Below are positions 5,737 through 31,659 of a DNA stretch of 60,466 nt, piece after piece. Positions within the stretch are counted from its first letter, which is position 1, and each line of letters begins with the position of its first letter. Position numbers and translations under genes: made by a program. Below the pieces are notes generated by a model. The model made no database searches. It saw only the letters and a list, made by a program, of their open reading frames with translations, and had not been told where the DNA came from. The stretch is from Stramenopiles sp. TOSAG23-2 (Eukaryota; Sar), in contig LT649250.1 in NCBI GenBank assembly GCA_900128395.1, forward strand, positions 1 through 60,466, written 5' to 3'.

Positions 5737-8700
5737 TCATAAAGGCTGCTTAAATGCGCGTTTAATTGCTCCCAAAATTGACTCAGCTGTGTTTTTTGAC
5801 TGGGCCTCTGTCTTACCCAGGTTATTGTAACCACATGTGGTTTGAAATAAATAAACCTCCGTAGCTCTATCTGGTTTCCAATGAATTTTGCCTTTTTTAC
5901 TTCTTTGAGGTTCGTGTTGAAATCCGTGTTTATACACATGCTCAGTGTCTTTGATATATTTGTTACACCGTTGAAAAAAATTCAAGTCTTCAAATTCCTG
6001 TTTTTTTAGTAGTTTACGTACAGAATTTCTCCCTCCAAATTCAGCAAAGAAAACAATAAAAGATAAAGTCTCGTTCCTTTTTTCAGCTTCTGAAAGCAAT
6101 TCTGTGATCTTAAGTAAAGTATTTTGAACACTAAGTTTGTCAAAAGGTGGATTGGCTTCCCAACTACCTACCATGTGCTTGTTATCGTCATCAAAAAAAC
6201 TTCCAAGACTACCGAAACATTTATCCGTATCTGGAAATGCAGAATAAAATTTATCTAATCGATGATTTAGCGGTGACGCAAAACATTCCCCCTCAACTTT
6301 CAACCTTTTCCGTAAGACCTCAAAAACTTTATCTGGCAATGCCCCTTGCGCACCGCTGTTCTCCCCCCAGAGTGTGTGATATCTTTGCAACATTGACAAT
6401 ATTCTTTCATCAACTAAATTTCTAGCATAACAAAACTTGTTATTGATTCTTGCCTTGTCGTGATCACTGCATAACTTCTCGTAATACTCAGTAAATAGTT
6501 TCTGGCCTCTATTCGCATTTTGTTGAGAAATTTTTAAAGTCGTTATTGAATTTTCCTCCGTCACAACTGGCTTACTTTTATAGTCCCCAGTTTTTTGAAT
6601 TTTGATCCTAGATTTTTCCATGCAATTCATTACATCATTGTAGAGTTTACATCCTAATTTTTTATTGCCTTGAAAAATATTAAATTCATTTCCCAGTCGT
6701 TTTAAAAAGTGCTTTTCAGTAGTAACATTTTTCTCTGGTAGCATATAATCTTTATCATCTAGGAGAATTGAATTTTTCGGTCCTTTTCTTACTATGAGAG
6801 TCCATTGCTCATCCTCTGTTTGACATATTGTACCGTCCCGACTACAATCGAAAATCCAATTAGAAATCGCTTTTGCAACTTTTCTTCTTACCGTATATTT
6901 TTTTTCAAAATCTTTAACTTTGTTTTCCACAGCAACAGCAACGATTTTCTCAGTACATTTTTGTATACAATCCTTCCGCAACATTTCATGTTTAGGAAAT
7001 ACATATTTAGACGATCCGTGTTTTTCGCTTTCTTCTAAAAGTTGTGAGGGTGGGACATCATGACTAAGTTCAAATCTTCCTCGCATCCATGAAAAAGTTT
7101 TAACACTCTTTTTGAGGAAGTTTCTAAACAAAGTACGGTGTTCTGGGTGCTGTAGATCTCCAGGTATATCCCAATTGAACATTTCGCTACGGGATTTGTC
7201 AGTGGATATTATAATGGGGCGCATGTGCCTCAATTCTCCTTTCAATAAGGTGTTCAAAAACCACCATTCATCACCGTTGGTTCCATCGCGTTCAGATAAC
7301 GTGCTAAAAGATCTTCGGTATGTCTCTTTTATCTCGTTATACATAGAAGACTTTTCACATTGTTTTTCAAGATTTCTAGGCATAATAAATAAAATGTTTG
7401 TATCTTCATACTTTTGACTAATCAAATCCTTCATAGCTTTTTCGATTGCCTCTCCAGGACAATTTGATGGAGCATCACTGTTATAAGCAACATTTCGAGC
7501 ATCAATAATAAGAAAAGGATTTTCAGTTATATCAACTTCTTCTTGATTCCTACACATCAATTCCGTAAACATAGTTTTTTCCTTTGGAGTTTTCAAGGGC
7601 TTTAATTCATTTATTTCGATCATATGTTTTTTTTTCGTAATACTTTGATGGATTTTATTATTGTTGCCTTCTTTCCTCTCTTTTATTAATTTTCTTAACA
7701 AAATATTCGTAGGTTTTGTTGATTTTTTATGATTTTTTATAGCACTTTTACTATTTGTAACATCGACTGCCTCTTTCTTCACAACAAAATTCATAACTTC
7801 ACGTAGTTTATGTTTTGTGCCATTTGTAACACTAGGTATCAATCTCTTTTTATCACTTTTATTTCTTTTTGACATTTCCCCCACTTTCTTTTTAACGTCA
7901 ATCTTTACATGTTGTTTCTGTTGCATCAATTTTTTTTTCCAATTTAAAACATTCCTATACAATCTACTTTGGTCCACTCCAGCCGCATTTAGCATAGTCA
8001 TAACTTTTTTACCGGTCAACCTCCGATCTAAGTAATTTTTATGTGCTTTACGTATAGCTTGAGTTTTATATACCTGTTATATTTACAAAACATTCTTGTT
8101 AGTAACATGTATAAATATATGTGTATGTATATATAAGAGGTACAATATATATAGAAGTTGATGTGTTATTTACGTACATTTTGTACTTGTACTTGTGCTG
8201 TATAACGTTCATGCCATGATACTTGTTTGCAAATACTCAATTCTAGTCTACTAATTGCTAAAAACACACCATCGACATATGTTTCAGTTGATCTATTCCA
8301 CAAAAATAGCAGCGTTTCGAATGGCTTTATGTACGATTGAAAATTATTTATGTCACTTTTTTTGCCACCAAAAACACAGTATTTTAAACAATCACTTTCT
8401 GTACTTTCATTGCAATAAAATATAAAGCCAGGCAAGCCTTCTGAAAGTTTCTCTTTCACCTCTCCTTTCTTCTTATTGCTCTTGTCTTCACTGTTTCCCC
8501 TGCTTAAATCTTTCAATGATATCTTCTTGGGTTTCGTTGCTTTATTTTTGACAGTGCTCTTATTCTTTGCAGAATCTCTTCTTTGTTTTTTCTCTTCTCC
8601 CTCATCTTCTTCGGAATCTTGCTTTAAGTTAGCATTATAATCTAATTCTGCACCACCCAGTAGATTTAAGTTCACCATTCTATAATCGTTTGTTATCAAC

Positions 8701-9839
8701 TCATGAGTTTTAATAGTTTTCTTCTTACCATGTCTAAAGAATGACCCTTCTTCCTTTTTCATCTCATTCTTTCTATGTGCTTTAGCAACAAAGAATGACC
8801 CTTCTTCCTTTTTCATCTCATTCTTTCTATGTGCTTTAGCAACTATCTTATTACTATGTTGATCATTTGCTGCTTTTGGTTTTGCTTTCTTTAAACCATT
8901 TTGAATTACTTGCACGTTTCCCGCTTTCGTACCACCTATCTTTAAACCACATAAGTTACTTTTCGGTTTTTTCTTTTTCTTATCAGGTAGGTCGTTTTTC
9001 TTACCACGTGGTGATTCTTTTTGCTTATTTTTTTTCACACTTGATGCTTTTTTCTTTTTTTCGTTTTGACCAATTGCAATCTTTTTTCTACCCCGTTGAT
9101 TCTTAATAACCGACGATTTCATCTTTTCCTTGTCGTCATTTAGCGATACTGTCATCTTCTCCTTATTCCTTCTTTTCCTCTTGTCATTTTTAAAATTTAT
9201 TACCTTCTGCTTCTGCTTGCCTCCTATTTTAAGAGTCGAATCGTCTTTTTTCTTACCCTGTTTCACATTTAGTGCCTTTTGTTTCTTTTTCTTTTGATCC
9301 ATTGCCTTCATTGTTTTTTCCTTTCGAATTCGACCTGCATTCCCGATTTTCATCTTATCATCAGTTGTACCAAAAGTTGCAAAATCTCCTCTTATTTTTT
9401 CTTCTTTTTTAATGACTAAAGAGATTTTATTAAGCGATGCTTCCCTCTTTACCTCATTGTCATTTCTAAGCACCGGAGTTTTGCTTTCAATATCAATTGT
9501 CGTCTTCGCTTTCCTCTTGTCATTTTTAAAATTTATTACCTTCTGCTTCTGCTTGCCTCCTATTTTAAGAGTCGAATCGTCTTTTTTCTTACCCTGTTTC
9601 ACATTTAGTGCCTTTTGTTTCTTTTTCTTTTGATCCATTGCCTTCATTGTTTTTTCCTTTCGAATTCGACCTGCATTCCCGATTTTCATCTTATCATCAG
9701 TTGTACCAAAAGTTGCAAAATCTCCTCTTATTTTTTCTTCTTTTTTAATATCTGAAGTAGTTTTTCCAAACTGTGCAAAGTCATTTTTTATTTTTTCGCT
9801 CTTTGTGTTAATGGATACTTTCGTCTCTTCTGTCTCCAT
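5737..9839 (-). CDS. DCD domain + NYN/PIN-like RNase + PCIF1-type cap m6Am methyltransferase (two exons)
   Basis: Join of exon 1 (9839-8178) and exon 2 (8073-5737) gives about 1,332 residues. The start ATG at 9839 follows an in-frame TAA directly. Residues 1-460 are Lys-rich with duplicated blocks. About 468-595 is a DCD (Development and Cell Death) domain (GFIFYCN, FLWNRST, YTAQVQVQ) that crosses the intron. About 740-890 resembles Zc3h12a/NYN RNases: LIIDARNVAYN with Asp745, GDEWWFLN with Asp822/Glu823, and ISTDKSRSEM with Asp846. About 940-1322 matches PCIF1/CAPAM: GECFASPLN, SAFPDTDKCFGS and the catalytic NPPF at 1195-1198. PCIF1 methylates N6 of the cap-adjacent 2'-O-methyladenosine of mRNA. 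The WW domain of animal PCIF1 is absent. Domain calls come from motif reading. The combined architecture is new to me. Confidence 0.8.
8074..8177 (-). other. Intron (104 bases, phase 0) in the DCD-NYN-PCIF1 gene
   Basis: Donor GTACGT begins at 8177 and the acceptor ...TATAACAG ends at 8074. Without splicing, exon 1 stops three codons later and exon 2 has no ATG at its start. Splicing joins VQVQN to VYKTQAIRKAHKNYLD in frame and rebuilds the C-terminal part of the DCD domain, which is strong support. It is the only intron I can support in the window. Confidence 0.8.
8736..8843. repeat. Two tandem 54-base units within exon 1
   Basis: 8736-8789 and 8790-8843 are the same 54-base unit side by side, each encoding VAKAHRKNEMKKEEGSFF on the minus strand. 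Confidence 0.85.
9174..9749. repeat. Two apparently identical 240-base repeats within exon 1
   Basis: 9174-9413 and 9510-9749 read identically at an offset of 336 bases. They encode the same 80 residues twice, including the IRGDFATFGTTDD and Lys-rich blocks. The length is a multiple of three, so the frame is kept. Base-level identity points to recent duplication or gene conversion. Confidence 0.85.
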
Positions 9840-11322: not shown

Positions 11323-11901
11323 GGGAGAATTGTTAATATTATGGCAATTTTACCTTAATATTATTGAACAAAATTTTTAGTGTTTACAATTAGATCCATA
11401 TATAACATATTAGTATATATATTTGTGTACTAAATTGAAAGTACGGACTTTCACCCCATTGTGTCTATGCTAGGACTTTTTTTTGCGCACCTGCTCGTTG
11501 ATAAATCAACTCCCGACGGTGGCAAAAAATAAGCTAGCATGACACATGGGGATGAAATCCTAGCCAATTTTTTATAAGTTGGATCTAGTATTGGTAATGC
11601 GGCGCCATGTTAAATATAACCAATACTGGATCCAACTTATAAAAAATTGGCTAGGATTTCATCCCCATGTGTCATGCTAGCTTATTTTTTGCCACCGTCG
11701 GGAGTTGATTTATCAACGAGCAGGTGCGCAAAAAAAAGTCCTAGCATAGACACAATGGGGTGAAAGTCCGTACTTTATTAGATCTGAAAAAATAATTGAT
11801 AGCATAAAACCATAAATAACACAAAAATGTTAGACGAAATCCCTTAAAAATACACCACCTTCAGGGTGTCAAAAATTTGCCATAACATTAACAATTCTCC
11901 C
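11323..11901. mobile_element. MITE-like palindromic element with 25-base terminal inverted repeats
   Basis: GGGAGAATTGTTAATATTAT... at 11323-11347 is matched with one mismatch by its reverse complement at 11877-11901. Inside lies a near-perfect long palindrome: arms 11438-11595 and 11619-11776 (158 bases each, one obvious mismatch) around a 23-base spacer holding GGCGCC. No transposase is encoded. This nested inverted structure is typical of non-autonomous foldback/MITE DNA elements. Flanking ATA on both sides may be a short target duplication. If transcribed, the inner arms would form a very long double-stranded hairpin. Confidence 0.75.
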
Positions 11902-15768: not shown

Positions 15769-18700
15769 TTATAAATCTTTATATTCATCCCTGTTACTAA
15801 GATCATAATCACCATCCATCATAGGGGAGTTTTCAATAGCAGTAACTATTTGTTGAAAACAGATTTTTTTTGAAGTGTAAGCGGGCAACTTCAATTCAAA
15901 AAAACAGGTTTGTGCTGTTGGTAATCTTTCATTTGGATTTGGATTTGAGCATTTTTTAATCGTAAATGGCATGGTAAAATCACTTTGAGATCGCGGTAAG
16001 CGTTCACAGGCACTTACAAAACTTAGAAACAAAGATAGTTGTTTCGAATTCATTTCGTTTAATGATTCCCAGAAATATTGAATAATTTCATTTTCTTCCT
16101 CATATCCATCAGCATATTCAGTCATTGACTTTAATAAATCCAAATCAATATCGGATGAGCCACATATCAAATTTTCCAACTCTCTAGGTTGAAACAAACA
16201 AAATAATTCTGTGGGTAGAACGGAGCTAATACCGTTGTAGAAGTGCTCCAATTGAATATTACCACGTTGTAACCTTGAATTTTCGATTTGTAGTAGTGAT
16301 TCATATAAATTTTGTTTCGTAATACGTTTTGAATTCAAATATATTTCAAATTGCTCATTCAAATCATCTAATAAATCTTCATTAATGTGATCTAAATTTA
16401 TTTTTCTATATTGTTTCAGAGTACTACATAAGACAGGATCAAGACTTTTCAAATCCTCTCCATATTCAACATGGCTTCCAGTTAGAGGTTTCCATATCAA
16501 CGAAGATAAGTTTAACGGGATTATGATTCCATGCCTTACTGCTGTGCCAATTAGCTGCCCTAAAAACTTAATTCTTTTCAGAAAGGTATCGTCCATACAC
16601 TCCGGTGATGCATTAAATTCTTGAATATTTGATTGTCCCATTTTAGTACTATTTAATATTCCTAGACACTCTAATTCACTAGCACATGCACTTTGAAACA
16701 AAGCACGGTACGGGCCACCATTATCAGCAACCCCTTCTCCAGCAAATTTTACGTAAAATGCACGACTTTGACCTTTATCTTGAACATCAATAAATGATCT
16801 ACGGTAATGCTTATCCTTCCATCCACTCATCACATTATATACTTGTCCAAAAGTTGACAAATGAAAACGCTGTGATTTGTCTCCTATCTTTTTTAAAGTA
16901 TCAAGCGTTGCCTTTATACGATTGATAGATATTTCTACTAATTCTTCCGGTTTGTCGTATTCATCCATAGGTGGCTGTGTCGGCTCTGTAGTTGCATCTA
17001 AAAGTTCCTCCCAAATATTCATTTTTGTATTTTGAAAAATAATGTTCTTAATGTCATATATCTTTCGTCCAAATGATGAAGAAAAAATGATTTTTTCTTG
17101 TTGCAAAGACGTTAATTTTTCCCGTTCAATAGAAAAATCAATCAATGGGAGCAACGTGCCAATCTTTATATTTAAATTTAACAATACAAAAAAACGTGCC
17201 ATGCATGCTTCTGTTGGGATTTCTTTTTTCGCAAAAATATCATTACTATCATGCGAAGGTGACATTATATCTTTTATCTTTAAATGTGCTGGATCCAGAT
17301 TTAAACGACTTGTTGCTTGATTTATATTTTCAACTATACTCTCATCAACATCAATAGTCCACCATTTTTCATTTTGTACTAAGTTCACAAAGTTCTCAAA
17401 ATCAATTTCACGTAATGCAATCAATTCAGCTTCAGAATTGAACGCAGTTCCATTTTTATCGTCGCTTACCCCATTCCCATCCTTTGATTCTGTATCGTTG
17501 CCAAGACTTCCATCGTTAATTGATTTTAAATCTTCGTTATATTGATCAATTGCCATCCTAGCACCATCTTGACCAACAGAAAAGATCCATGTCAATGCTT
17601 CATCCACCGTTCCTTGCATCAGCATTATCACTTTGTAATCATCAGGACTAAAGTCTACTTGGCCTTGTAACATCATGGATAGAGATTGAATACCTTCTAA
17701 AACACTTGGATCTTCCTGTGGGATTTCTTCGCCTTCTTGAAGTAATCGTATTTCCCCATTGTTCACTTTAATAGCAACATCTTCTTTTGTCCAATACCAA
17801 GTTTGCTCATCTTCTCCATCTTGCGTTGTATACCATATATGCCCTCTTTGACTCCCTAATATCTTCACCTCGCCACGGATTTTACTTACTAGTCGATCCC
17901 CGGCTTTCCAATTTTGCCCAGATGATTTCTTACATGCTGCTGGAGACGGATCAACAGTGATAAATATCCCAGGGCGTGTTAAATACCGACGTTGATTTAA
18001 ACGATAACTTTTCATTAAGCGGTAGGACTCCTGCAAAAATTTCATTGGCAAATTCACACCCATTTTTTTCCAATTTTGTATCATCATAGCTGCATAAATC
18101 GCGTCATCTAATCGCTGTCTAGTACTACCAGATGGTCTTGAGATCCACTTTGAATATTTTAGTGAAACTCTGTCATTATTACCATCTTTAGCTGACAATG
18201 AAAAAGACGGGTATAGAATTTGGCTATCCATTCGGCTTCGATCTCCATCAACGCCGCCAGTGCGAATGAACCTATGTGCGACACCAAAATTAACAGCTTT
18301 TTTCTGTGTTGAAAATTGGTCTAAACCATCTTTAATGAAGGCAATAAGACCACGATCCATATCAAGTATAACACCAATTACATCACCTGTATTGTAAAAT
18401 CTACCATACATTTCTTGTCCATGTTGACGATCAACTTTGCATCTGTAGCTTATAAATGCGTAATCACCCCAACCTTCATTTTCCTCTTCATAATATTCGG
18501 GGTTGTTACTGCCTCCATTGCTATGCATATTGCGCCGATGCGAAACGCCAATCGCCATCGTTCCCCATTCAACACTTTCGCATTTGACTTCCCAATAATG
18601 AAGCCCACTCGAAAAACCTCTGTTTCCGAGCACAAATCCTTTGCTTCCACCTGCGTATTTTGCAGTCTGTAGATCATCTGATAAATCAACACCACCTTGT

Positions 18701-21700
18701 ACGGAGGAAGGATCAAATACAAATAATTTATCAAACGAAAAATTATACGAACCATTTATTTCTATATCGACAGCATCCTCTGATTCAAAACTAGACTCTA
18801 CGACATCGTTATCTATAAAATTTAATGCCTCCGGGACTTTTTCTGTTGAGAGCCTTTTCAAAGAAACGGGTGGTTTTGCGTTCGATCGAACATATTTCCC
18901 ATGTGAATACAACAGAAATTCTTTTTCAAATATTTTGTAATTTAGGGAACTAAGTACGGTGGCATACATGTTCTTGTTTAGTATTTCGTTGCCATTCTCT
19001 AAATTTGAATGCTCAAACACGCCATTCATTTTACCATTGATCCAGTTACCTTTCCAAGATTCCGTTTTACCTCCTGGTAAATATAAAATACCAAATCCAT
19101 GAGGTACCCCCCGACTCCAATAACCCTGATATCGTTGGCAAAATTTAACATGGTTTGAAATGTTGCCTATGGCAATTGGTATTTCAGCCTTTGAGGAAAT
19201 GGTTTTGCATCTTGATAATACATTGCTACCTCTATACTGACAATTGTAAAAACCACTTTTAAATCCCAAGATACGTAGGCTCGCTGTACCATAAATACTT
19301 AGACATGGTCTCACTGTATCCCATTTAAATGGGGAATCTTTTATATCTAAATTCATATACCCAACAACTTCACTATTTTTGAACAAATACAGTGATTTAA
19401 TATCATCAGAAATTAAGAAGCCTAAAATATCTCCATTTGTACAATACAATGCATGACGCGAATCTCCAACAGTATAAACTTTTCCATTTTTGGAAATAGT
19501 ACCAGTTCGAAGATTCCATGCAATACATTGTTTTTGTTTTTCTATTGACTCTTTTAGATTCGCTGCAATAGGTGCAAAGCCCACCACAAGGTCAGCGGAA
19601 CGACCTCTAGATATGTGCATAAATTCCCATAATCTGCCTTTCATTGTATGCACAGTGTGTTTCTTGTTATTATCCGGGTCTTTGCCAACATCAATAAAGA
19701 TAGAAGAGAACTTTTTATGTTTTACAGTCGAATTAATTTTTTTTCCATCATTGGAAATTACTACGTTTGCAGCATGGTTTGCGCTTGGAAATACACAGCG
19801 TGATTCATACGGTAAGAGTGGTCCCAAGTTTTTTAGCTTCACTTTGTTTGACCATTTACCTTTTAAAATATTACCTTCAATTGTCCCATTGTATTTACTG
19901 CCAAGGTTCCATTGATATGATTCCGGCGAGCCCAAAATTTGTTCAATTATTTCAAAACTAACTTTGCAACCTTCAGTGAAAGTACATGTATCTAATTCCA
20001 TAAATGGACTTTCATCATTCTTATCCTCACCATCATCAATATCATCGCTTTCATCATTTCGTGTAATAATGACACTATTTAGAAGTGTGCCTTCATAACG
20101 AAATTGGACCCCATTGTCCGGAAAATAAACTGTTCCTGATATTTGGTAGACGTAACCACTTTTCTTTTTGGTAAAATGCTTTCCAACGGCAAGCTTAAAT
20201 ACTGCCGATTTGACATCATCACTTTGCCAAAAGCCATTTACACGTTTTAAACCGTACCTTTTCCAAGACCCAACACATGTCAATATTTCATCATGGGATT
20301 GTGAAGTCCTCTCAACAATTGCAGTTTTTTTCCAAAGACTAGTTGTGTCCTCTGCCCACTCCGCATTATAAACAAAAGTTGCGGTAAGATGTTTTGACAA
20401 ATCTTCAATGTAACAGCCAGAACCGACATCAAAGCGCCAAAAGCCTAATAATGACTCTTGAGTAGCTAGCGGTAATTCATTTAACTTCCATACCATATCT
20501 CTTTTAATTTCTTTTGGACTACGTGCCACGCGCCAGTATCGTACTTCGCCCAGCAATCCACAAAAGCCGTTTTCTTTACTCCCAATATATGTCAGAGGTA
20601 ATTTTATGTTCTCTTGTGTAGTTATATAATGTTTGCCAATTTTTTCCCCATCCACATATAATTCTAAAATTGTCTTTAATCCACCACCTTTACGTGCGAC
20701 GAGTGCTAAATGCGTCCATTTCCCCCTGTTTACTTCATATTCAAAGGACAAAGGCTCAAAACCAACAATTTCAAAACATACATGCTTCCCAGTTTTAGCC
20801 TTTGAGGAAGATTTGCTTTTGTCAGCAGATTTTTTTTCTTGCCCTTTTTTCCTTCTTTTTCTTTTTTTTGGAGCTTTCCCGCCACCTGAGTTTTGTGAAG
20901 ACTCCCCATAATCAACAAACTTCGCATCGTTCATCGTTAATCCAGAACAGCGAATATGAAACCTAAATTTTGAAGAAAACGAAATGGTTTCAAGGCTGTC
21001 TTCATTCTTTTCGCCATCATCCATGGTTCCTCTTTTAATCCAAAATTCAGCTGTCCATGGAACCGACTTATCAGGCATGGTATGGGTTGATAGTGATACA
21101 GAAATGTAAGAACGGCTTGATAAAGACAATACAAAATTCCCATTTTCTATGCCTTGAAAATCATCGTTAAGCGTCACATCATTGCTACCTTGGCTTTTTG
21201 ATTTAATTAATTGCAATAGTCCAGTAAATTCAACCAGGCTCTTACTGTAGGTAGAGTATAAAGGGTGGTCTTCAAGTTCTCTGTAAATTCGCCGTGCCGC
21301 CATCGAAAACAATCTTAAAGTTGGAACAGCTTCAAGATATTTACTCAAATCTTGTTGCGTCTTTAAATGTTCATTTAGCTTTAAAACTTTTTGCAAAATG
21401 GAACTTAAAATTTTAAACGCCTGCTGTTTCATGGAGGTACTTGGTGATTTTAAAGTTCTTGTCCAAATTGAAAATAGATGTAAATAGCTTTCATTCCTAA
21501 GTTTCAAGATTTTAATGCTATCGTCATTCTTAGGGATTACACCCTCATCCGTGCCAAGTAGAACTCCTGTAATCCACTCTGCAAAATATATATTTGGTGT
21601 TTCCATAGTCTTTATATCAGTCATGCGAACGTACGATTCTTCAGTGTGCCGATTAGAAGCAAATTTTCTTTGGGCAGCATTTGCTAAAATCGATCCCAGC

Positions 21701-24700
21701 TGCTTGACTAAGAAGTTACTCAATTCAATCCCAGATTGAGATGTTGAGGAAAGTTCTGCTTCCAAGGTTGACGCTAAAATGGTCCTAATTGTGGAAGTAT
21801 TATCATACGAAGAACCACTAGGGCTTGAAGTGGATTTCATCGAGAGCCACCATTCTGGTATCGCAAATCTACTGGTGACAAGTCTTAAAAACTTAAAAAA
21901 TGTATTTGTTACGGATTCATCGCCCACAAATGTTCCCATAATATTAAAAGGAATATTTACCGTGATCGATCGTTGCCATATAATAGTCAGAAGCAGTTTT
22001 CTTCCGTTTAAAATCGTTATTTTGCGAATATAAGCAAGTAACGTCTCCGCTAAATGTTCATAGGAGATGTTCTTTAGTTCATTTAAAAACGATTTAAAAT
22101 CACTACCTACAGGAAATGCAGATGCGCTAATTGTCTGCAGCTCCTTTCGCACGTCAGTTTGCACTTGAGAATGCGTTGAATTACGGCGTTTAAAAACTCG
22201 ATTAATAGCAACATTGTTTCTATTTCTTGATGAAGAGTCATCATCAATAGTAAATTCTTCCTCCATCCCGTCCTCTGTAAATTCCGATGTCTCGCCATTT
22301 TTTTCACCTTCTTGTGCTTCTAAATTTGTCTTGTCATCACCATCTATCTGTTGTTGCATATCGTCATCCATATCATCGTCATCTTCATTCATCTCGTCTT
22401 CCTCTTCTTCTTCTTCCTCCTCTTCCTCTTCGTCGTCTGTCATTTTATCGTTTGCGTCCTCTTCTTCATTTTTACTTGCTTCTAATTCCTCGCTATGAGC
22501 TAATATCCATTGAATACTTTCTTCTATGTTTCCTTCGCATACATCATATGCAATTTCACACCAATTTTTAGGAAATCCCATTGCTAAAATAGGAGCAAGC
22601 TCAGCGTCTTGATCATCTTGTTCTGGCGCTTTTGGATCTATTGTAGCGATAACGTTGTCGCCTGTATTTGTTGCTACATTCCCTTGATCCTCTATTACAG
22701 CTATACTCGTTGCTTCGATTTGGCTTACCTCTGCATTTTCTATGGATAAATCAATAGATGACACAGTAAAATTGTTTTCCATGTTGCTATCAGCTCTGTT
22801 CTTAAAGTTATACGTTTGATCGCCTTCGCCTTTATCAAAAGATCTAAATGGTATCCTTGAAAGCCCTGAATCAGATTTTATAGCAAGTCTAATAACTGAC
22901 CTCGATACCCGTTCCGTGCCACAGGAAGAAGCGTGCGAAATACTTACGTCCAGTATATCAGATGTGAAATATGCAATCGCACCGCAAATAAATCTTGAAA
23001 CATGTGGAATGACTTTCTCTATATCGTAAGCAGATTTTGTAATAACTCTGTCAATTTCTGCTTGTAATTGCTTGCAAACTTTCCACCATCCATCCGATTT
23101 AATATGTTCTATATTATATGCATATAAATTAGCCATTTCTTTCATAGATTCTTCGATCTCGGCATCAACTTTCAGCACAGAGTGACAATATTCACCAGCT
23201 GCTTCAAAAATAATTTCTTCCTGGGCCACTTTCTCTTCATTAACTTCATCCATGAAAGCTGAAAAAATCCCGTTTGCCATATTGTTCAGAATCCAATTTA
23301 AAAACGAAACGCCATTCGGTTGCAACTTGATCTCATTATATTCTTTTTTTACGTTGAATTTAATAGATTTGCTCATGTCAATTGGATTTAAAATTAAAAG
23401 AGCCTTTGTCGGCATATCAAATCCATGTAAGAACAAGGGCATGTTTGTTCCTATTGCCATGGAAGATAATTCCCTTCGCTGAGAATACCAACGTGACATG
23501 AGGGACTCAAAAATTCGCTCCAATACAGGTAATTGGTTCAAACCACACGTATCTGTTTCTACTATTGACAAATCTAAAAGTTTCTGACAAAATTGTTTTC
23601 CATTTTCATGGTTGAATAAAGTATTTACTGCATTAGCATTGCCTAAAGCTTGCGTCAAAACTTTTAATTGTTGGTTAACAAACAGAGCTTCTTTTATTTT
23701 AGATTCGTTTGGATTCAAAAGAGGAATTTCATCTTGCCAACCGTCAGACGTGTCTATTTTCTTTGGCGCTTCTACTTTTTCTTCCTCCCCGTCTTCTTCT
23801 AGGTTCACATCTTCCTTTGATACCAATGCCGAAGGTAAAATTATAAGCTTATCAAATTTCTCGTAAACATTTTCCGCCAATACACACGACATAGTCGTAG
23901 AAATAAGCTTATCAGAAAATAAATCGCCTTTCACATTTACTTGTGGTTTAGGAATGACATTTTGGACCGAACATAGTCGTTGCTTTCCATATCGATCTAC
24001 AACTGATTTATCTAATAACACATTAACTCGATCAGACTTCATATCATAATCTTGTACAATTCCCACAGCAACATCTGAAAAACTCCATTGATCTAGTGCT
24101 ACTGCATCACTAATTTGAACTTTACCACCTGGTCGAAGTGGTTCGTAGTAACCACCTAAAACTGCAAATACCGACATCTTTTCCTTATAGACTACTTCAG
24201 ATTCCTTATTTTGATTTATATCGCGTTTCAGTACTGCCAACAAAATATTTTCTATTAATGACTTCCATTTTGGACTTTGAGCAAGAGATCTTATAAGGGA
24301 AACCGAGTCGGAGGACAAAGTAGCTGCCCGTAATGGGTGGTGCAAGGTTGAGCACTCCCTAACAGTGTGACCTATAGGTGCAGATGTTCTAGCAATAAAC
24401 TTTAAAAAGTGATTTACGAGACCAAAAGCACCAACTTTATTGGTTGATTCTGGCAAAATACATTGCAATCTTTCGGGATGCATCTCAGGCAAGACGTGTC
24501 GCAATAGTCTTAATATACGCCTTTCTATATGTGCCGGGCTTGCATGCAGTAAATTTAAAATCAATGTAAGCCATTTAGGTTCGGAAAGTAAGTCAACACA
24601 CCCCACTAAATCATTAAATCTTAGCAAGAAAGAAACAGATTCCCCAACAAATATTTCTATATTGTCCGTTGCATAAACGACATCGTCATTGGCACTGTCT

Positions 24701-27700
24701 ACTTGAGATTCCTTTAACCGATCTACTGCTTGACCCATTTCGAGAAACAAAATTTTAAACACATCCGTAGGCACGTCCTTGCTACCTATATTTTTCAATA
24801 TTAATGTCAATTGTGACGCCAATAAGTTAAACGTTTTTAAATTTGACTTTTGGCAAAGATCTACATAAAACATCTCATTGGACATCCCGCTTGTGCTAGA
24901 AATTTCTTCATACAAGTGTTGATGCTTTTGGTTTGCCATATGAAGAGCGTGAAATATACCTGATTTATCTAATACGGCTTTAAACTGAAGCTGTAATTTC
25001 ATTTTGATCGCACAGCATACCGTTAAAATATGCTGCAAATGATATGATTTAGTTTCGATGCTTTTTCGTAGTAGCTCGACCAAGGACGTATATACTGTAA
25101 TATAATCATGCTGTAGCTCCTGGACCATTTTCATGTTGCAACCGGCTGTGCCACTCGAAAATATAATATTTCGATATGAGGAAGATATTACACTTAGATA
25201 TGCACCCAATATTTTTTCGTTTTTTAACTTAAGAAGTTGCTTTCGAATCAGTTTGTAAGCATCCATTCGAAAGTTTGTTATTGAAGAAGCACGTAAAATA
25301 TTCCTTTTTATGACATTCAAGTCGACTTTGGTACTAAAAAATTTCGTAATGTCCCGTAGCACATCTTCGATACGATCTGTTTCTTCCAATGATGAAGAGT
25401 ACCTGCTTCTTAATTTTCCTCCTGAGTTTTTCCTATCCTTCTTCTTAACAGGGGCTTTTTTCCCTGAAGATACCGTTTCACCACTCGCTTTACTAGAATC
25501 TTTTTGCGAGTACAACAACATAAATACTTCTTTCATTCTTGACACTTCTTCGTTGATTGAAGCCTCCAACGCGTTTGAAGTTATTTCCCGAACTGGCGAG
25601 TAAAAATTTGACAGAAACTCTACTTTTGATTCTAATGTCAATTTCACATCCTCCGCACTCATCTTATTATTTTGCGCGTATGCGCGTAGCTTATCCAACG
25701 TAATTTTAAATGTCGATAGTATCGTCATTAAATTTTCTGGTGGAATAATTTTCATTAAAACATTTTTATCCGAATCTAATGATACATTGTATTTGTCAAA
25801 TGAACGATGCAATTCATTTGATAATTGTAACGTAAGCTTTGAGTTACCACTAAAATAAATTATAGTGGCTAACAATTTCTTGATACATTTTGGAAACTTC
25901 TTATACCAATGGCGAACGAGCATATGAATATTAGCATTATGTTCTAACCATGTAAAAATCAAATCTTTATTGCTTTGACCTTTTCTTTGTCCCGTTAACT
26001 CGCTGGTTAAATCTAACAGGCTATCGCTTTGATTTAAATTGAATTCTGTTCCAATCAAACCACCCTCCAAAATCGAAGAAGACAGCCATTGTTCAGAATC
26101 ACGAGCTTCTTTTTTCATTTGAAGACTTGCAACGTTAGTACCAGTGCTAGTCAATCCCAATAATTCTTTCTCTTTTATACCGGCCGGTGGTGGTTCGCCA
26201 AAGACTAATTTAGGTGGTACGTAACCCGTATCAACAGTTTCATTCTTTGCCAAATAATACTCGCAATCAAGCAAACAAACTGTAAGTTTTCCTAAAAATT
26301 GGCTGAGTAAGATGGAAATGTAAGTGCATTGCTTATGAACTGTGCTACTTGTTTTGATAACATTCAATATTTTATTTAAAACAGATATCAAATCAACTAC
26401 ATGGTTCTTCATATTTTGTATTGTACTTAATTCAAACTCACTCCTCAAACAAATAGAAATCAATATTTGAGGCAATAAGACCATCAAGAATGGATTTTGA
26501 AACATTGTTTCTTCTATTCCATCCTGTGTATTTTTTATATCGTTTAAAAATCCAGCAAACAACTCTTTTGCCTGATTTAATAAATGTAAAAGACAATCTG
26601 TGGCCACATCAGCCATTTTAAACTGGCAGCACTTATAGATTTCCTCATTTGAAGACGATAGATCGTAAATACCATGGTTCTCCTCCTCAAGAATTGAACC
26701 AAAGAAAAAGTCAACATATGTAACTTGATCCCCTTTGTCGCGTAACGACACCGTAGGAACCACCGGAAGATTTTGGGAAAAGTTTCTAAATGCAACACCA
26801 AAAGACCTTCGTTCTTTATAATTTCCAAATGATAATGTCCCGCCATCAATAGAAGTTGTGTCATAGGTCATATAAATTAAAGTGCCCGGAAGAATGCGTT
26901 CGCAATAATACCTATCTTTTGCACGACCACGTCTAAAGATTTTCCCTCTTAAATCAAGTGAAACTCCAAAATTTTCACTGCCAACGTAGTTATTTGAATT
27001 AAATTTAGATTCTTTTGCCATGCCAATGTATATCCGGCCTTTGCTTATATTATCAACTCTAAAAACCCAAGTCCAAACCCCACTGTCACAAACTACGGTT
27101 TCTTGTGTAGTTATAGAACCCCATACATTTTCTGTATTATGTTTTGCCTGTTTTCCGGTTTCTTTGTCTATAGATACACATTTCGCTTTTCTCCGCAGAT
27201 CAAAACTTGAAGAATCTACAATATTCGCGTTATTGTTACTTGTAATCTTTGCCGACTTTATTTTCTCCAACTTCTTTACCAGTGGAACATCTAACATATC
27301 AATTGTTGTATAATGCTCCTTTGGGACACTTTGTGCTGGATTAGGTACAGAAGTCCCAAAAATCAATTGAAACAATATTTGGGCAAAACTTATCATAATT
27401 TGGCGTTCTTTTTTATCAATCGTCTCAGCACCTTTAAAATACGATAAAATTGAATTAAATAGGATACTACTAATTCTTTTGAAATCTTTGACTTTCTCTG
27501 CCTTTGATATCTTTTTATCTGACACGATTGAACCTTTTTTGCCATACCGACTTAAGCATTCTAAATATAATTGGCTTATTGATTTTAATGTGTGCATCTT
27601 TTTTACCTGATTTCCAGACCAGTGTAAAGCACGCTCTTTAACCCACGTAGCTGGTGCATTTTCTTTTAAGTAGTTTAAAATATTCATTTTTGTAAATTCA

Positions 27701-30700
27701 GGAACCTCTTTACTGGGTTCGATATATGGTTTTGGTGTATCGCATACCTCACACTTTATTGCACTGTGTTGATTATTAAATGTGCATGCGATGCAAGCCC
27801 ACACCGCCGTCGTTTCTGTTTTTTTCTTCTTTCCACTTTGAACTTCTATGCCATCTTCTACATATTTCTGGACTTCTTCTATTGGCCATATGGCTATAAC
27901 TCCATTCTTTTTAATTTTTCTTCTCGTGTTATCATTACTATTATTTGTATGTTTCCTCACTTGGAAGTTTTCAAAATTTAATCTACTTTGGTTTAAGTCT
28001 AATTCAAATATTGGGGTAACTAAATCATCTGGTATTGTTTCCACTAATATTCCAAGCTCACATGTACACTTTTTGCATAATAAAAAAAATATTTTCTTGT
28101 GTTGACTCCCAACAAATTTCACATCTACGCCATACACCAGACTCATATCAAAACTATTGTTGTTGATGACATTTTCATTTTGGATCATGTTGTTAAAATT
28201 CAAAAATATACCTGTCAACAATGACTGTCGTTCAGTGGAACTTGGAAAGAAAATATCTACGTAATCAATGAGAATTTCGGCACACTCCTTACGTATAATA
28301 TTTAAAAATTCTAGATCTGCAATAATAATGCTGATATTGGTACTTTCTGTTGCCACCAAAACTAGCATTTCTTTTAAATTTTGCAGCAATGGATTATTAT
28401 TTAAATGAACATGTTTTTCCGTCTTCTCCGATGCATGTATTGCTTCAAAAAGGTTTGCATTTATAATCCGTAATATTGATATTGCAAAAACATTTGTTAA
28501 GGATGGATTTTGATCAAACGATGTGTGAAACAAAGCTTGACCAAATAAAGATACTAGAAGATTAAATGGTAGCTCATATGGTTGCACTGCTAACTGACTT
28601 TGGTATGTTGGGTGTTTAATTTTTGATGACCGAATATCACTTTTTATTGATACATATGCTTTACACATTCTACTTATTCCATATATCATACCAGTAACAA
28701 AAATTGAATTAGTCAAATTGTTTTCACTAACAGATTTGTCAACGATCGCTTTCATTGTAACATGCAATATATCGTTGCTACTATCGCCAAGTTCACCCTT
28801 ACCCCTAGAACTAGAGGGAAAGGAATCAATCTTGTCAGCTTTTAATTTTTCCAACCGTAAATCATCCCATAAATCAATAACGTTTTCCTGGACTTTTCCA
28901 TTCGAGGAGACTAAAAGAACTGTCCCATGATTGCCAACACTACGATCACCAAGTACAGTAGAATCGTGAACCACATTGCCAAAACCTTCATCACATTTCC
29001 AAAATCCTAATATGTCAGGATGGCTATGTACTTTTGAACATCGTCCACATGATAACCTTATTTGTTCGGTAGTAAGACATTTTTTCCACATCTGCAATGA
29101 AGCTAATGAGCCTGCCCATTCTCTGCTAGTGTTTTCCAGCTTTTCCTCGATTCCCGTGTAAATTTGACTTTGCGTATTTTTATATTGATGGTGTCCAAGT
29201 GTTAATGGCCCAACTCCATATCCTATTGCACATAGTATATGATTATACTGATCAACAACAAGATGATCTAAATAAAATTTGACAGATAGATATGAACGAG
29301 ATGGATCATACGAGACTGCAACTCCCATTGAATACCATTGATTCCCTAAAACTGCGTTTGGTTGTGAGCAAACCGTACATGACCCGTAGAACCTTATATA
29401 TATACGGCCATCATGCGTTACACCCACTTCATAGCCTCCGCTATCTTTTCTTAAGCGTGTCACCCCGAATGAATTTGATGCTTTACTTGTTTTTGTTAAG
29501 TGATCGTATATGGGCTCATATTTATAATCTGGACATGTACCTTTGGACAACAGAACATTCCACCTTTTACCATTCTTAGACAACTCTTCTGGTGTTTTCA
29601 TTCTTACTTGGATATGCATCTGCCTATTTTTACGAAAACTGTAATAATCTTTTTTATCAGCAATCTTGACGCAAGAAAATACATTATTATAATTATTATT
29701 ATTATTATTATTATTATCCTTTTTCCTTTTGAATTTTTCAAAATTTATAACATGTTTTACATCGTTGTTAAAGAAATGTTTGCAATTCTTAATTGGGTAC
29801 GAACATGCTTCTTTTGCATACCTCATCGATATTTTTGTTTTTACCGTAGATTTTATACTTATACAAGGTAATAAATATCTAGAATACATTCCAGCCGATT
29901 TTTTTTCATCCTTTCTAGATAGTATAGCCATAAAATTGGACGCTTTCGGTATATCAAATTTTGCTACGAATTTGCCATTAATATAATACATCATCTCCTT
30001 TTTCGTAACATCAATAGCGCAACCTAATACAGTCCCAAGTGCCATGGTCTTCACAACAATGTCTTCTTTTTCGCTATTTTTAACATCATATTCTTTTGTC
30101 CCCACAATACCTTTAATCTGTTTCACCAATGAAAATGCGCATTCATCCTTTAAATCGCCCAGTTGTATGTCATACGGTATTTTTGATCCAGGTGTTTCCT
30201 TCTTCTTGCTCTCAGTATTTTTTTTGTTTATACTTTCCTTTTTTGTATCTGCTATATCTTTCTCATTACTATCATTGATAGGGTTGAACATCCATCCTAT
30301 ACGAAAAAATGTACAATTGTCATTAGTGTCAACGTTCGATAGTAATTTAATTTCAAAATATAACACATTGCTTTTATTATTATTGCCATTTACGATACTG
30401 TTTGTAGATACTTTATAAGATTTGCCAGAAAATACACTGTAGCCAGAGGTTGAGTCATCGACTTCCAATTTTGCACCACCTGCTCGTTTCCAAATCACTC
30501 TTCCTGTCGTACGGCATTTCCATTCCAGAATTGAGCTTTTGACCCAATGCTTTGCCACATCATATATAAGACGGTCTTGGTTTGGTACCCAAATGTTTAA
30601 TAATAAAGACAACAAGAGACCAGTTTCACTGGCATAATGTTCTGAATCTCCATGATCTTTATATTCCTTTAAAATAACTTTTGTTGCAATTAATATTGTT

Positions 30701-31455
30701 TCAAGAGAACTATTAAATAATCCTTTTTGAAACAAATTTCCTATTGCTTTCTTTTTATCATAATCCTCTCTTACTTTTGCTAAACTCATTTGGTTTGAAT
30801 TAGTACTACCAATACTATTATTGCTATTACTGCTTTCTCGACTGCTGCTTCTTTTTAACTTGGTTGGATTTATGGACTTATTATTATTATCCCCACTATC
30901 TTCTTGTTTTTTTCTTGCTGGTCGAACAAGGATATGGTGCCGCAATAAATTATATAAATTTTCTTCTCCCTTTGAAGTTCGCATTTCACGCAACAAACTA
31001 TCAAAAATTTTAACATTCACTTTTGGATCTTCTTCCACTGAAAAAGCCCTCTCTTCTTGTTGTTTTTGTACAATATTTTTAATAATTTTATCTTGCTGCG
31101 GCAACTTCTTCCATAAAAACTCTTTTTTCTTACTAGTATATTGCAAATGTACATATCCATCTAGAAGTTCAGTTAAATTTTTACGATTTAATGTGCGTGC
31201 ATATCGACCTGAGTGCGCCATAATGGATACTTGCTGTATGAACTTTTCCACTGGTTTCCTAGTCGCCTCTTCATTTATGTTCTTTTCCAACTCGCTAGGT
31301 TCACGGTTATTATTATTATTATTATTACCCGCTTCAATATTTTGATAACTTTCTTCAAATTCAACAACTTCTTCTGCTGATTCAGCTCTTCTTAAGTTGA
31401 CACGACTTGAAAACGGGCGCCGCCTTGACACCAATAAAGGGTCTTCTTCCATCAT
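15769..31455 (-). CDS. Giant HECT-type E3 ubiquitin ligase (5,228 residues)
   Basis: One uninterrupted frame. I chose the ATG at 31455 (MMEEDPLL) because the 55 codons upstream read like AT-rich leader. Domains in order, rough residues: SPRY about 330-560; LamG/concanavalin-like 600-830; RanBP2-type zinc finger about 1218-1245 (WACIACTF...KCEVCD); second SPRY 1435-1605; UBA about 2945-2990; an acidic poly-Glu stretch; second LamG-like domain about 3438-3680; MORN-like repeat about 4108-4150 (YQGYWSRGVPHGFGILY); third SPRY about 4245-4420; HECT about 4880-5228. The catalytic thiol is Cys5184 in LPTAQTCFFELKLP. HECT enzymes take ubiquitin from E2 onto this Cys and pass it to substrate. The UBA and zinc finger probably bind ubiquitin; SPRY and LamG probably bind partners. 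Size recalls HERC1/HUWE1, but the domain set differs and no RCC1 repeats are seen. Confidence 0.9.
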   Translation of the reverse strand: MMEEDPLLVSRRRPFSSRVNLRRAESAEEVVEFEESYQNIEAGNNNNNNNREPSELEKNINEEATRKPVEKFIQQVSIMAHSGRYARTLNRKNLTELLDGYVHLQYTSKKKEFLWKKLPQQDKIIKNIVQKQQEERAFSVEEDPKVNVKIFDSLLREMRTSKGEENLYNLLRHHILVRPARKKQEDSGDNNNKSINPTKLKRSSSRESSNSNNSIGSTNSNQMSLAKVREDYDKKKAIGNLFQKGLFNSSLETILIATKVILKEYKDHGDSEHYASETGLLLSLLLNIWVPNQDRLIYDVAKHWVKSSILEWKCRTTGRVIWKRAGGAKLEVDDSTSGYSVFSGKSYKVSTNSIVNGNNNKSNVLYFEIKLLSNVDTNDNCTFFRIGWMFNPINDSNEKDIADTKKESINKKNTESKKKETPGSKIPYDIQLGDLKDECAFSLVKQIKGIVGTKEYDVKNSEKEDIVVKTMALGTVLGCAIDVTKKEMMYYINGKFVAKFDIPKASNFMAILSRKDEKKSAGMYSRYLLPCISIKSTVKTKISMRYAKEACSYPIKNCKHFFNNDVKHVINFEKFKRKKDNNNNNNNNYNNVFSCVKIADKKDYYSFRKNRQMHIQVRMKTPEELSKNGKRWNVLLSKGTCPDYKYEPIYDHLTKTSKASNSFGVTRLRKDSGGYEVGVTHDGRIYIRFYGSCTVCSQPNAVLGNQWYSMGVAVSYDPSRSYLSVKFYLDHLVVDQYNHILCAIGYGVGPLTLGHHQYKNTQSQIYTGIEEKLENTSREWAGSLASLQMWKKCLTTEQIRLSCGRCSKVHSHPDILGFWKCDEGFGNVVHDSTVLGDRSVGNHGTVLLVSSNGKVQENVIDLWDDLRLEKLKADKIDSFPSSSRGKGELGDSSNDILHVTMKAIVDKSVSENNLTNSIFVTGMIYGISRMCKAYVSIKSDIRSSKIKHPTYQSQLAVQPYELPFNLLVSLFGQALFHTSFDQNPSLTNVFAISILRIINANLFEAIHASEKTEKHVHLNNNPLLQNLKEMLVLVATESTNISIIIADLEFLNIIRKECAEILIDYVDIFFPSSTERQSLLTGIFLNFNNMIQNENVINNNSFDMSLVYGVDVKFVGSQHKKIFFLLCKKCTCELGILVETIPDDLVTPIFELDLNQSRLNFENFQVRKHTNNSNDNTRRKIKKNGVIAIWPIEEVQKYVEDGIEVQSGKKKKTETTAVWACIACTFNNQHSAIKCEVCDTPKPYIEPSKEVPEFTKMNILNYLKENAPATWVKERALHWSGNQVKKMHTLKSISQLYLECLSRYGKKGSIVSDKKISKAEKVKDFKRISSILFNSILSYFKGAETIDKKERQIMISFAQILFQLIFGTSVPNPAQSVPKEHYTTIDMLDVPLVKKLEKIKSAKITSNNNANIVDSSSFDLRRKAKCVSIDKETGKQAKHNTENVWGSITTQETVVCDSGVWTWVFRVDNISKGRIYIGMAKESKFNSNNYVGSENFGVSLDLRGKIFRRGRAKDRYYCERILPGTLIYMTYDTTSIDGGTLSFGNYKERRSFGVAFRNFSQNLPVVPTVSLRDKGDQVTYVDFFFGSILEEENHGIYDLSSSNEEIYKCCQFKMADVATDCLLHLLNQAKELFAGFLNDIKNTQDGIEETMFQNPFLMVLLPQILISICLRSEFELSTIQNMKNHVVDLISVLNKILNVIKTSSTVHKQCTYISILLSQFLGKLTVCLLDCEYYLAKNETVDTGYVPPKLVFGEPPPAGIKEKELLGLTSTGTNVASLQMKKEARDSEQWLSSSILEGGLIGTEFNLNQSDSLLDLTSELTGQRKGQSNKDLIFTWLEHNANIHMLVRHWYKKFPKCIKKLLATIIYFSGNSKLTLQLSNELHRSFDKYNVSLDSDKNVLMKIIPPENLMTILSTFKITLDKLRAYAQNNKMSAEDVKLTLESKVEFLSNFYSPVREITSNALEASINEEVSRMKEVFMLLYSQKDSSKASGETVSSGKKAPVKKKDRKNSGGKLRSRYSSSLEETDRIEDVLRDITKFFSTKVDLNVIKRNILRASSITNFRMDAYKLIRKQLLKLKNEKILGAYLSVISSSYRNIIFSSGTAGCNMKMVQELQHDYITVYTSLVELLRKSIETKSYHLQHILTVCCAIKMKLQLQFKAVLDKSGIFHALHMANQKHQHLYEEISSTSGMSNEMFYVDLCQKSNLKTFNLLASQLTLILKNIGSKDVPTDVFKILFLEMGQAVDRLKESQVDSANDDVVYATDNIEIFVGESVSFLLRFNDLVGCVDLLSEPKWLTLILNLLHASPAHIERRILRLLRHVLPEMHPERLQCILPESTNKVGAFGLVNHFLKFIARTSAPIGHTVRECSTLHHPLRAATLSSDSVSLIRSLAQSPKWKSLIENILLAVLKRDINQNKESEVVYKEKMSVFAVLGGYYEPLRPGGKVQISDAVALDQWSFSDVAVGIVQDYDMKSDRVNVLLDKSVVDRYGKQRLCSVQNVIPKPQVNVKGDLFSDKLISTTMSCVLAENVYEKFDKLIILPSALVSKEDVNLEEDGEEEKVEAPKKIDTSDGWQDEIPLLNPNESKIKEALFVNQQLKVLTQALGNANAVNTLFNHENGKQFCQKLLDLSIVETDTCGLNQLPVLERIFESLMSRWYSQRRELSSMAIGTNMPLFLHGFDMPTKALLILNPIDMSKSIKFNVKKEYNEIKLQPNGVSFLNWILNNMANGIFSAFMDEVNEEKVAQEEIIFEAAGEYCHSVLKVDAEIEESMKEMANLYAYNIEHIKSDGWWKVCKQLQAEIDRVITKSAYDIEKVIPHVSRFICGAIAYFTSDILDVSISHASSCGTERVSRSVIRLAIKSDSGLSRIPFRSFDKGEGDQTYNFKNRADSNMENNFTVSSIDLSIENAEVSQIEATSIAVIEDQGNVATNTGDNVIATIDPKAPEQDDQDAELAPILAMGFPKNWCEIAYDVCEGNIEESIQWILAHSEELEASKNEEEDANDKMTDDEEEEEEEEEEEDEMNEDDDDMDDDMQQQIDGDDKTNLEAQEGEKNGETSEFTEDGMEEEFTIDDDSSSRNRNNVAINRVFKRRNSTHSQVQTDVRKELQTISASAFPVGSDFKSFLNELKNISYEHLAETLLAYIRKITILNGRKLLLTIIWQRSITVNIPFNIMGTFVGDESVTNTFFKFLRLVTSRFAIPEWWLSMKSTSSPSGSSYDNTSTIRTILASTLEAELSSTSQSGIELSNFLVKQLGSILANAAQRKFASNRHTEESYVRMTDIKTMETPNIYFAEWITGVLLGTDEGVIPKNDDSIKILKLRNESYLHLFSIWTRTLKSPSTSMKQQAFKILSSILQKVLKLNEHLKTQQDLSKYLEAVPTLRLFSMAARRIYRELEDHPLYSTYSKSLVEFTGLLQLIKSKSQGSNDVTLNDDFQGIENGNFVLSLSSRSYISVSLSTHTMPDKSVPWTAEFWIKRGTMDDGEKNEDSLETISFSSKFRFHIRCSGLTMNDAKFVDYGESSQNSGGGKAPKKRKRRKKGQEKKSADKSKSSSKAKTGKHVCFEIVGFEPLSFEYEVNRGKWTHLALVARKGGGLKTILELYVDGEKIGKHYITTQENIKLPLTYIGSKENGFCGLLGEVRYWRVARSPKEIKRDMVWKLNELPLATQESLLGFWRFDVGSGCYIEDLSKHLTATFVYNAEWAEDTTSLWKKTAIVERTSQSHDEILTCVGSWKRYGLKRVNGFWQSDDVKSAVFKLAVGKHFTKKKSGYVYQISGTVYFPDNGVQFRYEGTLLNSVIITRNDESDDIDDGEDKNDESPFMELDTCTFTEGCKVSFEIIEQILGSPESYQWNLGSKYNGTIEGNILKGKWSNKVKLKNLGPLLPYESRCVFPSANHAANVVISNDGKKINSTVKHKKFSSIFIDVGKDPDNNKKHTVHTMKGRLWEFMHISRGRSADLVVGFAPIAANLKESIEKQKQCIAWNLRTGTISKNGKVYTVGDSRHALYCTNGDILGFLISDDIKSLYLFKNSEVVGYMNLDIKDSPFKWDTVRPCLSIYGTASLRILGFKSGFYNCQYRGSNVLSRCKTISSKAEIPIAIGNISNHVKFCQRYQGYWSRGVPHGFGILYLPGGKTESWKGNWINGKMNGVFEHSNLENGNEILNKNMYATVLSSLNYKIFEKEFLLYSHGKYVRSNAKPPVSLKRLSTEKVPEALNFIDNDVVESSFESEDAVDIEINGSYNFSFDKLFVFDPSSVQGGVDLSDDLQTAKYAGGSKGFVLGNRGFSSGLHYWEVKCESVEWGTMAIGVSHRRNMHSNGGSNNPEYYEEENEGWGDYAFISYRCKVDRQHGQEMYGRFYNTGDVIGVILDMDRGLIAFIKDGLDQFSTQKKAVNFGVAHRFIRTGGVDGDRSRMDSQILYPSFSLSAKDGNNDRVSLKYSKWISRPSGSTRQRLDDAIYAAMMIQNWKKMGVNLPMKFLQESYRLMKSYRLNQRRYLTRPGIFITVDPSPAACKKSSGQNWKAGDRLVSKIRGEVKILGSQRGHIWYTTQDGEDEQTWYWTKEDVAIKVNNGEIRLLQEGEEIPQEDPSVLEGIQSLSMMLQGQVDFSPDDYKVIMLMQGTVDEALTWIFSVGQDGARMAIDQYNEDLKSINDGSLGNDTESKDGNGVSDDKNGTAFNSEAELIALREIDFENFVNLVQNEKWWTIDVDESIVENINQATSRLNLDPAHLKIKDIMSPSHDSNDIFAKKEIPTEACMARFFVLLNLNIKIGTLLPLIDFSIEREKLTSLQQEKIIFSSSFGRKIYDIKNIIFQNTKMNIWEELLDATTEPTQPPMDEYDKPEELVEISINRIKATLDTLKKIGDKSQRFHLSTFGQVYNVMSGWKDKHYRRSFIDVQDKGQSRAFYVKFAGEGVADNGGPYRALFQSACASELECLGILNSTKMGQSNIQEFNASPECMDDTFLKRIKFLGQLIGTAVRHGIIIPLNLSSLIWKPLTGSHVEYGEDLKSLDPVLCSTLKQYRKINLDHINEDLLDDLNEQFEIYLNSKRITKQNLYESLLQIENSRLQRGNIQLEHFYNGISSVLPTELFCLFQPRELENLICGSSDIDLDLLKSMTEYADGYEEENEIIQYFWESLNEMNSKQLSLFLSFVSACERLPRSQSDFTMPFTIKKCSNPNPNERLPTAQTCFFELKLPAYTSKKICFQQIVTAIENSPMMDGDYDLSNRDEYKDL

Positions 31456-31627
31456 GATGTATATATTGTAATATCTTTCTTTTTTTTTTGTAAGTAATAA
31501 TGAAGAAAAGATATATGATGCGTGTGTGTATATATATAATATATATTGTGGTTGTACATATCTAAATATCTTAGTAAATCTATTAACAATATTAAAATAT
31601 CTATTATTTACTACTATCATAGTTTTA

Positions 31628-31659
<32 letters not shown>

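Follow-up and report, generated by a model that had tools for sequence, protein, structure and literature searches.

The stretch analyzed here, referred to as the window, is the whole of contig LT649250.1 of Stramenopiles sp. TOSAG23-2 (assembly GCA_900128395.1), with a length of 60,466 nucleotides (nt) within a genome of 17.45 Mb in 793 contigs. Its gene content and the intron predicted below read as eukaryotic. On its minus strand, positions 5737 to 9839 hold a gene, here called C17 after our handle for this contig, whose predicted product joins, in one chain and in this order, a DCD domain, a nuclease-like NYN/PIN fold, and a methyltransferase of the PCIF1 type, a kind that modifies the first base of mRNAs. 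An earlier note on this DNA had proposed both the architecture and a splice across 8074 to 8177, and both stand: a GTACGT donor (8177) and a CAG acceptor (8074) yield a single frame of 1332 amino acids (aa), and the three parts are recovered by Pfam, an AlphaFold model, and profile comparison. The features of the gene are as follows.

8178 to 9839, minus strand: exon 1, 554 aa, with a lysine-rich N terminus and most of the DCD domain (translation of the joined frame)
9174 to 9428 and 9510 to 9764, minus strand: two 255-nt direct repeats, 98% alike, inside exon 1 (repeat scan)
8178 to 8429, minus strand: exon 1 part of the DCD domain, residues 471 to 554, the rest to residue 562 lying in exon 2 at 8050 to 8073 (PF10539, E 8.5e-10)
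8074 to 8177, minus strand: predicted intron, 104 nt, phase 0, GTACGT...CAG (splice signals; ungapped homology to the intronless paralog C655)
5737 to 8073, minus strand: exon 2, 778 aa plus stop, with the end of the DCD region, a linker, the NYN domain, and the PCIF1 core (reading frame)
7033 to 7533, minus strand: NYN/PIN nuclease-like domain, model residues 62 to 228 (AlphaFold model, hhalign)
7501 to 7503, minus strand: acidic position 1, D745 in LIID (alignment A2), paired by eye with IIIDGAN of PRORP outside the hhalign segment
7267 to 7272, minus strand: acidic positions 2 and 3, D822 and E823 in NGDEWW, aligned with NDDW of PRORP (hhalign)
7198 to 7200, minus strand: acidic position 4, D846 in ISTDKSR, aligned with TND of PRORP (hhalign)
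5749 to 7044, minus strand: PCIF1 core, helical domain and methyltransferase, model residues 225 to 656
5923 to 6423, minus strand: match to PF12237 (PCIF1_WW), which is the methyltransferase (Pfam)
6142 to 6153, minus strand: catalytic NPPF motif (sequence)

The intron is predicted, and two results support it. The joined protein aligns without gaps through the junction to C655 (50 of 124 positions identical), and joining the exons lengthens the Pfam match to the DCD domain and improves it from E 3.5e-9 to 8.5e-10. A prediction that wrongly fused two adjacent genes could account for an intron placed at the junction, and a near-identical database protein, P0001, begins within exon 2. However, the homology is ungapped across the splice, and all parts are encoded in a single intronless frame in each of two paralogs, C345 and C655; as far as the architecture goes, these comparisons already refute the artifact, and we give it next to no credence. 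Because these two sister genes carry the same DCD-NYN-PCIF1 set (with two DCD domains in C655), the unusual combination is real. Lysine makes up 25% of residues 1 to 460, and the direct repeats of exon 1 are a sign that this lysine-rich tail is changing fast. A further direct repeat in exon 1 (54 nt, 100%) lies at 8736 to 8843.

A hidden Markov model search of the joined protein, which the earlier note had called for, recovered two of the three parts above the Pfam cutoffs: PF10539 (DCD) at residues 471 to 562 (E 8.5e-10, 39 bits against a cutoff of 27.8) and PF12237 at residues 1106 to 1271 (E 1.6e-40, 139 bits against 31.1). The NYN block matched no Pfam family above cutoff. The name PCIF1_WW is a misnomer, as the profile covers the methyltransferase (PMC7641849). 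C17 has both the helical domain and the methyltransferase fold of the PCIF1/CAPAM family, and the NPPF motif is preserved in all three copies (C17, C345, and C655). The joined protein has no Pfam match to a WW domain at E 0.1, and we do not class it as a PCIF1 ortholog. PPR (at E 0.1), CCCH, and KH domains likewise found no Pfam match in it.

Assignment of the NYN block relies on structure and profiles. AlphaFold, given exon 2, models the block as a PIN/NYN fold, the outcome that the earlier note required of structure prediction; the NYN region folded alone gives a low-confidence model. A four-row profile of the NYN family aligned with the NYN region of protein-only RNase P (PRORP) from this genome at a score of 34.8 (hhalign probability 57%, P 1.1e-4), which none of 200 shuffles of the PRORP NYN sequence reached (maximum, 24.1). 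Searched against the Protein Data Bank, the NYN alignment found PRORP2 only at E 1, ranking below RGS and interferon-beta (E 0.07 to 0.12). Among Pfam families, PF11977 (RNase_Zc3h12a) scored E 0.096 and 12.8 bits against C17 (cutoff, 23), and PF16953 (PRORP) remained below cutoff in C655 (E 0.012, 15.7 bits; cutoff, 39.1) and had no match in C17 or C345. A PF11977 search of the genome returned nothing at E 1, which does not exclude the family because NYN domains of the C17 type are too diverged for this profile. With PF01936, one other gene was found in the genome (C549), which the NYN profile does not match (hhalign P 0.24). The block, first likened to NYN/Zc3h12a, fits the PRORP/ZC3H12/KHNYN group as a whole rather than ZC3H12A in particular.

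Within this group, C17 resembles PRORP in its NYN fold and its four acidic positions, and by profile it matches the PRORP of this genome, which is encoded by a separate gene on C473. Unlike PRORP, it has no PPR match, and exon 2 ahead of the NYN domain has one cysteine and no CxxC. It also differs from ZC3H12A-D (Regnase) and KHNYN, having neither a CCCH nor a KH match and a PF11977 score under the cutoff.

The putative active site varies among the copies. In alignment A2, the four acidic positions of C17 read D, D, E, D; C655 and the database protein P0005 have D at all four, and C345 keeps one of the four. The loss is shared by P0002, a near-copy of C345 (98.7% identical, with 10 mismatches and one gap in 839 columns), and since it occurs in near-identical frames, a nuclease-dead but otherwise intact form persists. 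The protein could be a methyltransferase paralog in which only the DCD domain and PCIF1 core work, the NYN domain being vestigial or an RNA-binding scaffold that does not cut. C345 argues for this, since DCD and NPPF remain there and three of the four acids are gone, in a stable form shared with P0002; so does the glutamate replacing one aspartate in C17. However, C17 still has four acidic residues, and the aspartates are complete in C655 and P0005, so that we consider a purely methylating protein somewhat unlikely.

At least five genes in this genome match PF12237: the three with the full set, C133, and C164. C133 is a separate and more canonical PCIF1. When the PCIF1 half was used as query against a protein database, 76 proteins came back (here numbered with a P), three of which carry the NYN block (P0001, P0002, and P0005; phmmer E < 1e-20), the rest falling below the inclusion threshold. 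P0001 is a near-copy of C17 (719 of 729 residues identical), and P0005 is a diverged relative, 43% identical to C655, that may represent another lineage or a paralog; the architecture recurs in it up to a frame break inside the methyltransferase. Searches of proteins with P0005 and with A1 returned only P0005 and only P0001, respectively, and as they used limited word matching, absence elsewhere is not implied. A tree of 80 PCIF1 cores was built quickly, leaving out P0005 for its shortened core, and has long branches flagged; in it C17, C345, C655, and their near-copies group with P0003 and P0004 (Shimodaira-Hasegawa-like approximate likelihood ratio test, 99), apart from C133; support for the five DCD-NYN rows by themselves is 58.

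Several relatives show other arrangements. C164 (L008:1837-6510, minus strand) encodes a 1558-aa MATH-ankyrin-PCIF1 protein. ALPPS stands there where NPPF would be, and this PCIF1 is probably without catalytic activity and serves as a binding module. In the PCIF1 protein P0003, residues 102 to 231 weakly match CID (E 0.0077, short of the cutoff), a possible stand-in for the WW domain as a binder of the polymerase II tail. By precomputed labels, PCIF1 is joined to a second methyltransferase (PF13649/PF08241/PF05891) and, in Paratrimastix, to an OTU1-like ubiquitin thioesterase (P0061, P0063, and P0064; P0072).

Zebrafish PCIF1 contacts the cap through Arg239, Arg269, and Glu563 (PMC7948815), positions that we located by counting residues along a structure chain. 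The Arg239 column holds arginine in 59 of 81 aligned proteins and asparagine in 10, including C17, C345, C655, P0005, P0003, and P0004, and by motif asparagine also occupies this place in P0001 and P0002. The Arg269 and Glu563 columns vary widely across the family and are not diagnostic. Because the cap-phosphate contact is replaced in the members seen, the RNA bound may be either a capped polymerase II transcript or another adenosine-containing end. Compared with PCIF1/CAPAM, a cap-specific adenosine-N6 methyltransferase, C17 thus differs in lacking a WW match, in this asparagine, and in its added DCD and NYN domains.

Bell et al. (2020, PMC7641849) describe DCD as a PUA-like predicted binder of modified bases, near EVE and YTH, that occurs in mRNA maturation proteins, which is a better reading than the stress and cell-death module suggested in the earlier note. 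In two other genes of this organism DCD has additional partners: C480 (L017:6133-9501, minus strand) combines it with UBA, CCCH, and LSM14 in one frame, and C186 (L016:3328-6864, minus strand) with DnaJ and a CCCH match under the cutoff in one 1179-aa frame. A role as RNA reader fits these combinations, and through C480 DCD is linked here to the control of mRNA. The LSM14 family is known for decapping control. From C480, and from C17 and C655 having retained their four acids, it could be argued that the protein is a decay factor whose PCIF1 core mainly tethers it to RNA 5' ends, where the NYN domain destroys bound transcripts and methyl transfer is minor. Retention of NPPF in all three copies, set against a nuclease site in only two, makes this a poor prospect.

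The reading we prefer, in which we place about even confidence, is of a single-chain RNA-processing enzyme built on a divergent PCIF1 paralog. The steps beyond the domain assignments we infer as follows. The DCD domain, as a PUA-like relative of YTH and EVE, would dock on modified RNA; the PCIF1 core would grip the RNA close to the 5' end, methylating N6 of an adenosine; and the NYN domain, presumably metal dependent, would cleave the same RNA once held, in those copies that keep the acids. Because C345 retains the methyltransferase motif but only one of the four acidic residues, methylation and binding would be the constant function and cutting optional. Reading combined with N6 methylation of adenosine, with cutting where the acids are kept, is the mechanism we consider most likely.

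The earlier note had gone further and proposed a self/non-self RNA check in which cap-adjacent N6,2'-O-dimethyladenosine (m6Am) protects: RNA bearing the enzyme's methyl mark would escape, and 5' ends without it would be cleaved by the NYN domain. In a wider form this would be a one-chain eukaryotic RNA restriction-modification enzyme in which DCD would read base modification, the PCIF1 core would write N6-methyladenosine at RNA 5' ends, and the NYN domain would cut RNAs lacking (or carrying) the right mark. A predicted reader, writer, and nuclease do share one chain, and the dead nuclease of C345 could make it a modification-only partner. A comparable reader-RNase combination is found in bacterial PIN-GNAT-EVE proteins near restriction systems, which join an RNase, a modifying enzyme, and a PUA-like reader (PMC7641849). 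The likeness is one of functional analogy only; as described there, these proteins are bacterial and archaeal and have an acetyltransferase instead of a methyltransferase, and we do not claim whole-protein homology. On the other side stand the loss of the nuclease site in C345, the changed cap contact at the Arg239 equivalent, and the absence of any mobile-element gene among the 10 neighboring open reading frames (ORFs) scanned. We regard the proposal as improbable and retain the single-chain processing enzyme as our reading.

A domain fusion of part of this kind has been published, and the claim that no protein with this order had been described holds only for its nuclease part. DCD-CAPAM-like fusions were reported from the haptophyte C. 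tobinii and the choanoflagellate S. kvevrii (Bell et al. 2020, PMC7641849). As in those proteins, DCD in C17 lies N-terminal of a PCIF1/CAPAM-like methyltransferase in one chain; compared by their description, in which DCD is said to replace the helical domain, C17 keeps that domain and has the NYN block in between. The word NYN does not occur in the main text of PMC7641849, whose PIN passages concern bacterial EVE proteins. PMC11334937, PMC9458431, PMC7824862, and PMC7641849 mention PCIF1 and a NYN or PIN domain, and none of them joins the two in the passages concerned. In the open-access literature we found no PCIF1 protein described as fused to a NYN or PIN domain, although one may have appeared in a subscription journal.

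Adenine methyltransferases have been the subject of domain surveys. One such survey is cited for a PCIF1 clade in a phage paper (PMC7824862). The nuclease part is accordingly what is new to us; we know of no other nuclease domain in the PCIF1 family, and this would, if true, be the first. The purpose of cap-adjacent m6Am is still debated. Conflicting knockout results are also recounted in PMC9458431. With a PCIF1-type writer, an RNase-like domain, and a predicted reader coupled in one chain, a direct link from mark to RNA fate would become testable in one purified protein, and C345 would offer a natural nuclease-dead control for such tests.

The surroundings of C17 do not bear out the transposon-rich setting described earlier. 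Ten of the 21 other ORFs of at least 170 aa in the window were scanned, and none is transposon-like: they comprise two TPR proteins, an FkbM methyltransferase, a cytochrome b5, another methyltransferase, a U-box protein, a cullin, a Cu/Zn superoxide dismutase, a kumamolisin/subtilase, and one that matched no family at E 1e-5. Some of the remaining 11 are surely spurious. A transposon or mobile-element protein has no support from these 10 neighbors, and a viral origin none from IMG/VR, where two pattern scans gave no relative. One pattern scan of GTDB contigs likewise found no relative. A near-perfect hairpin at 11438 to 11776 (161-nt arms, 99%, with 17 nt between), of which partial copies lie on C454, C771, and C531, is a small foldback or an element resembling a miniature inverted-repeat transposable element. 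Farther along, a stop-free frame of 5286 aa at 15772 to 31629 resembles, by eye, a giant HECT ubiquitin ligase.
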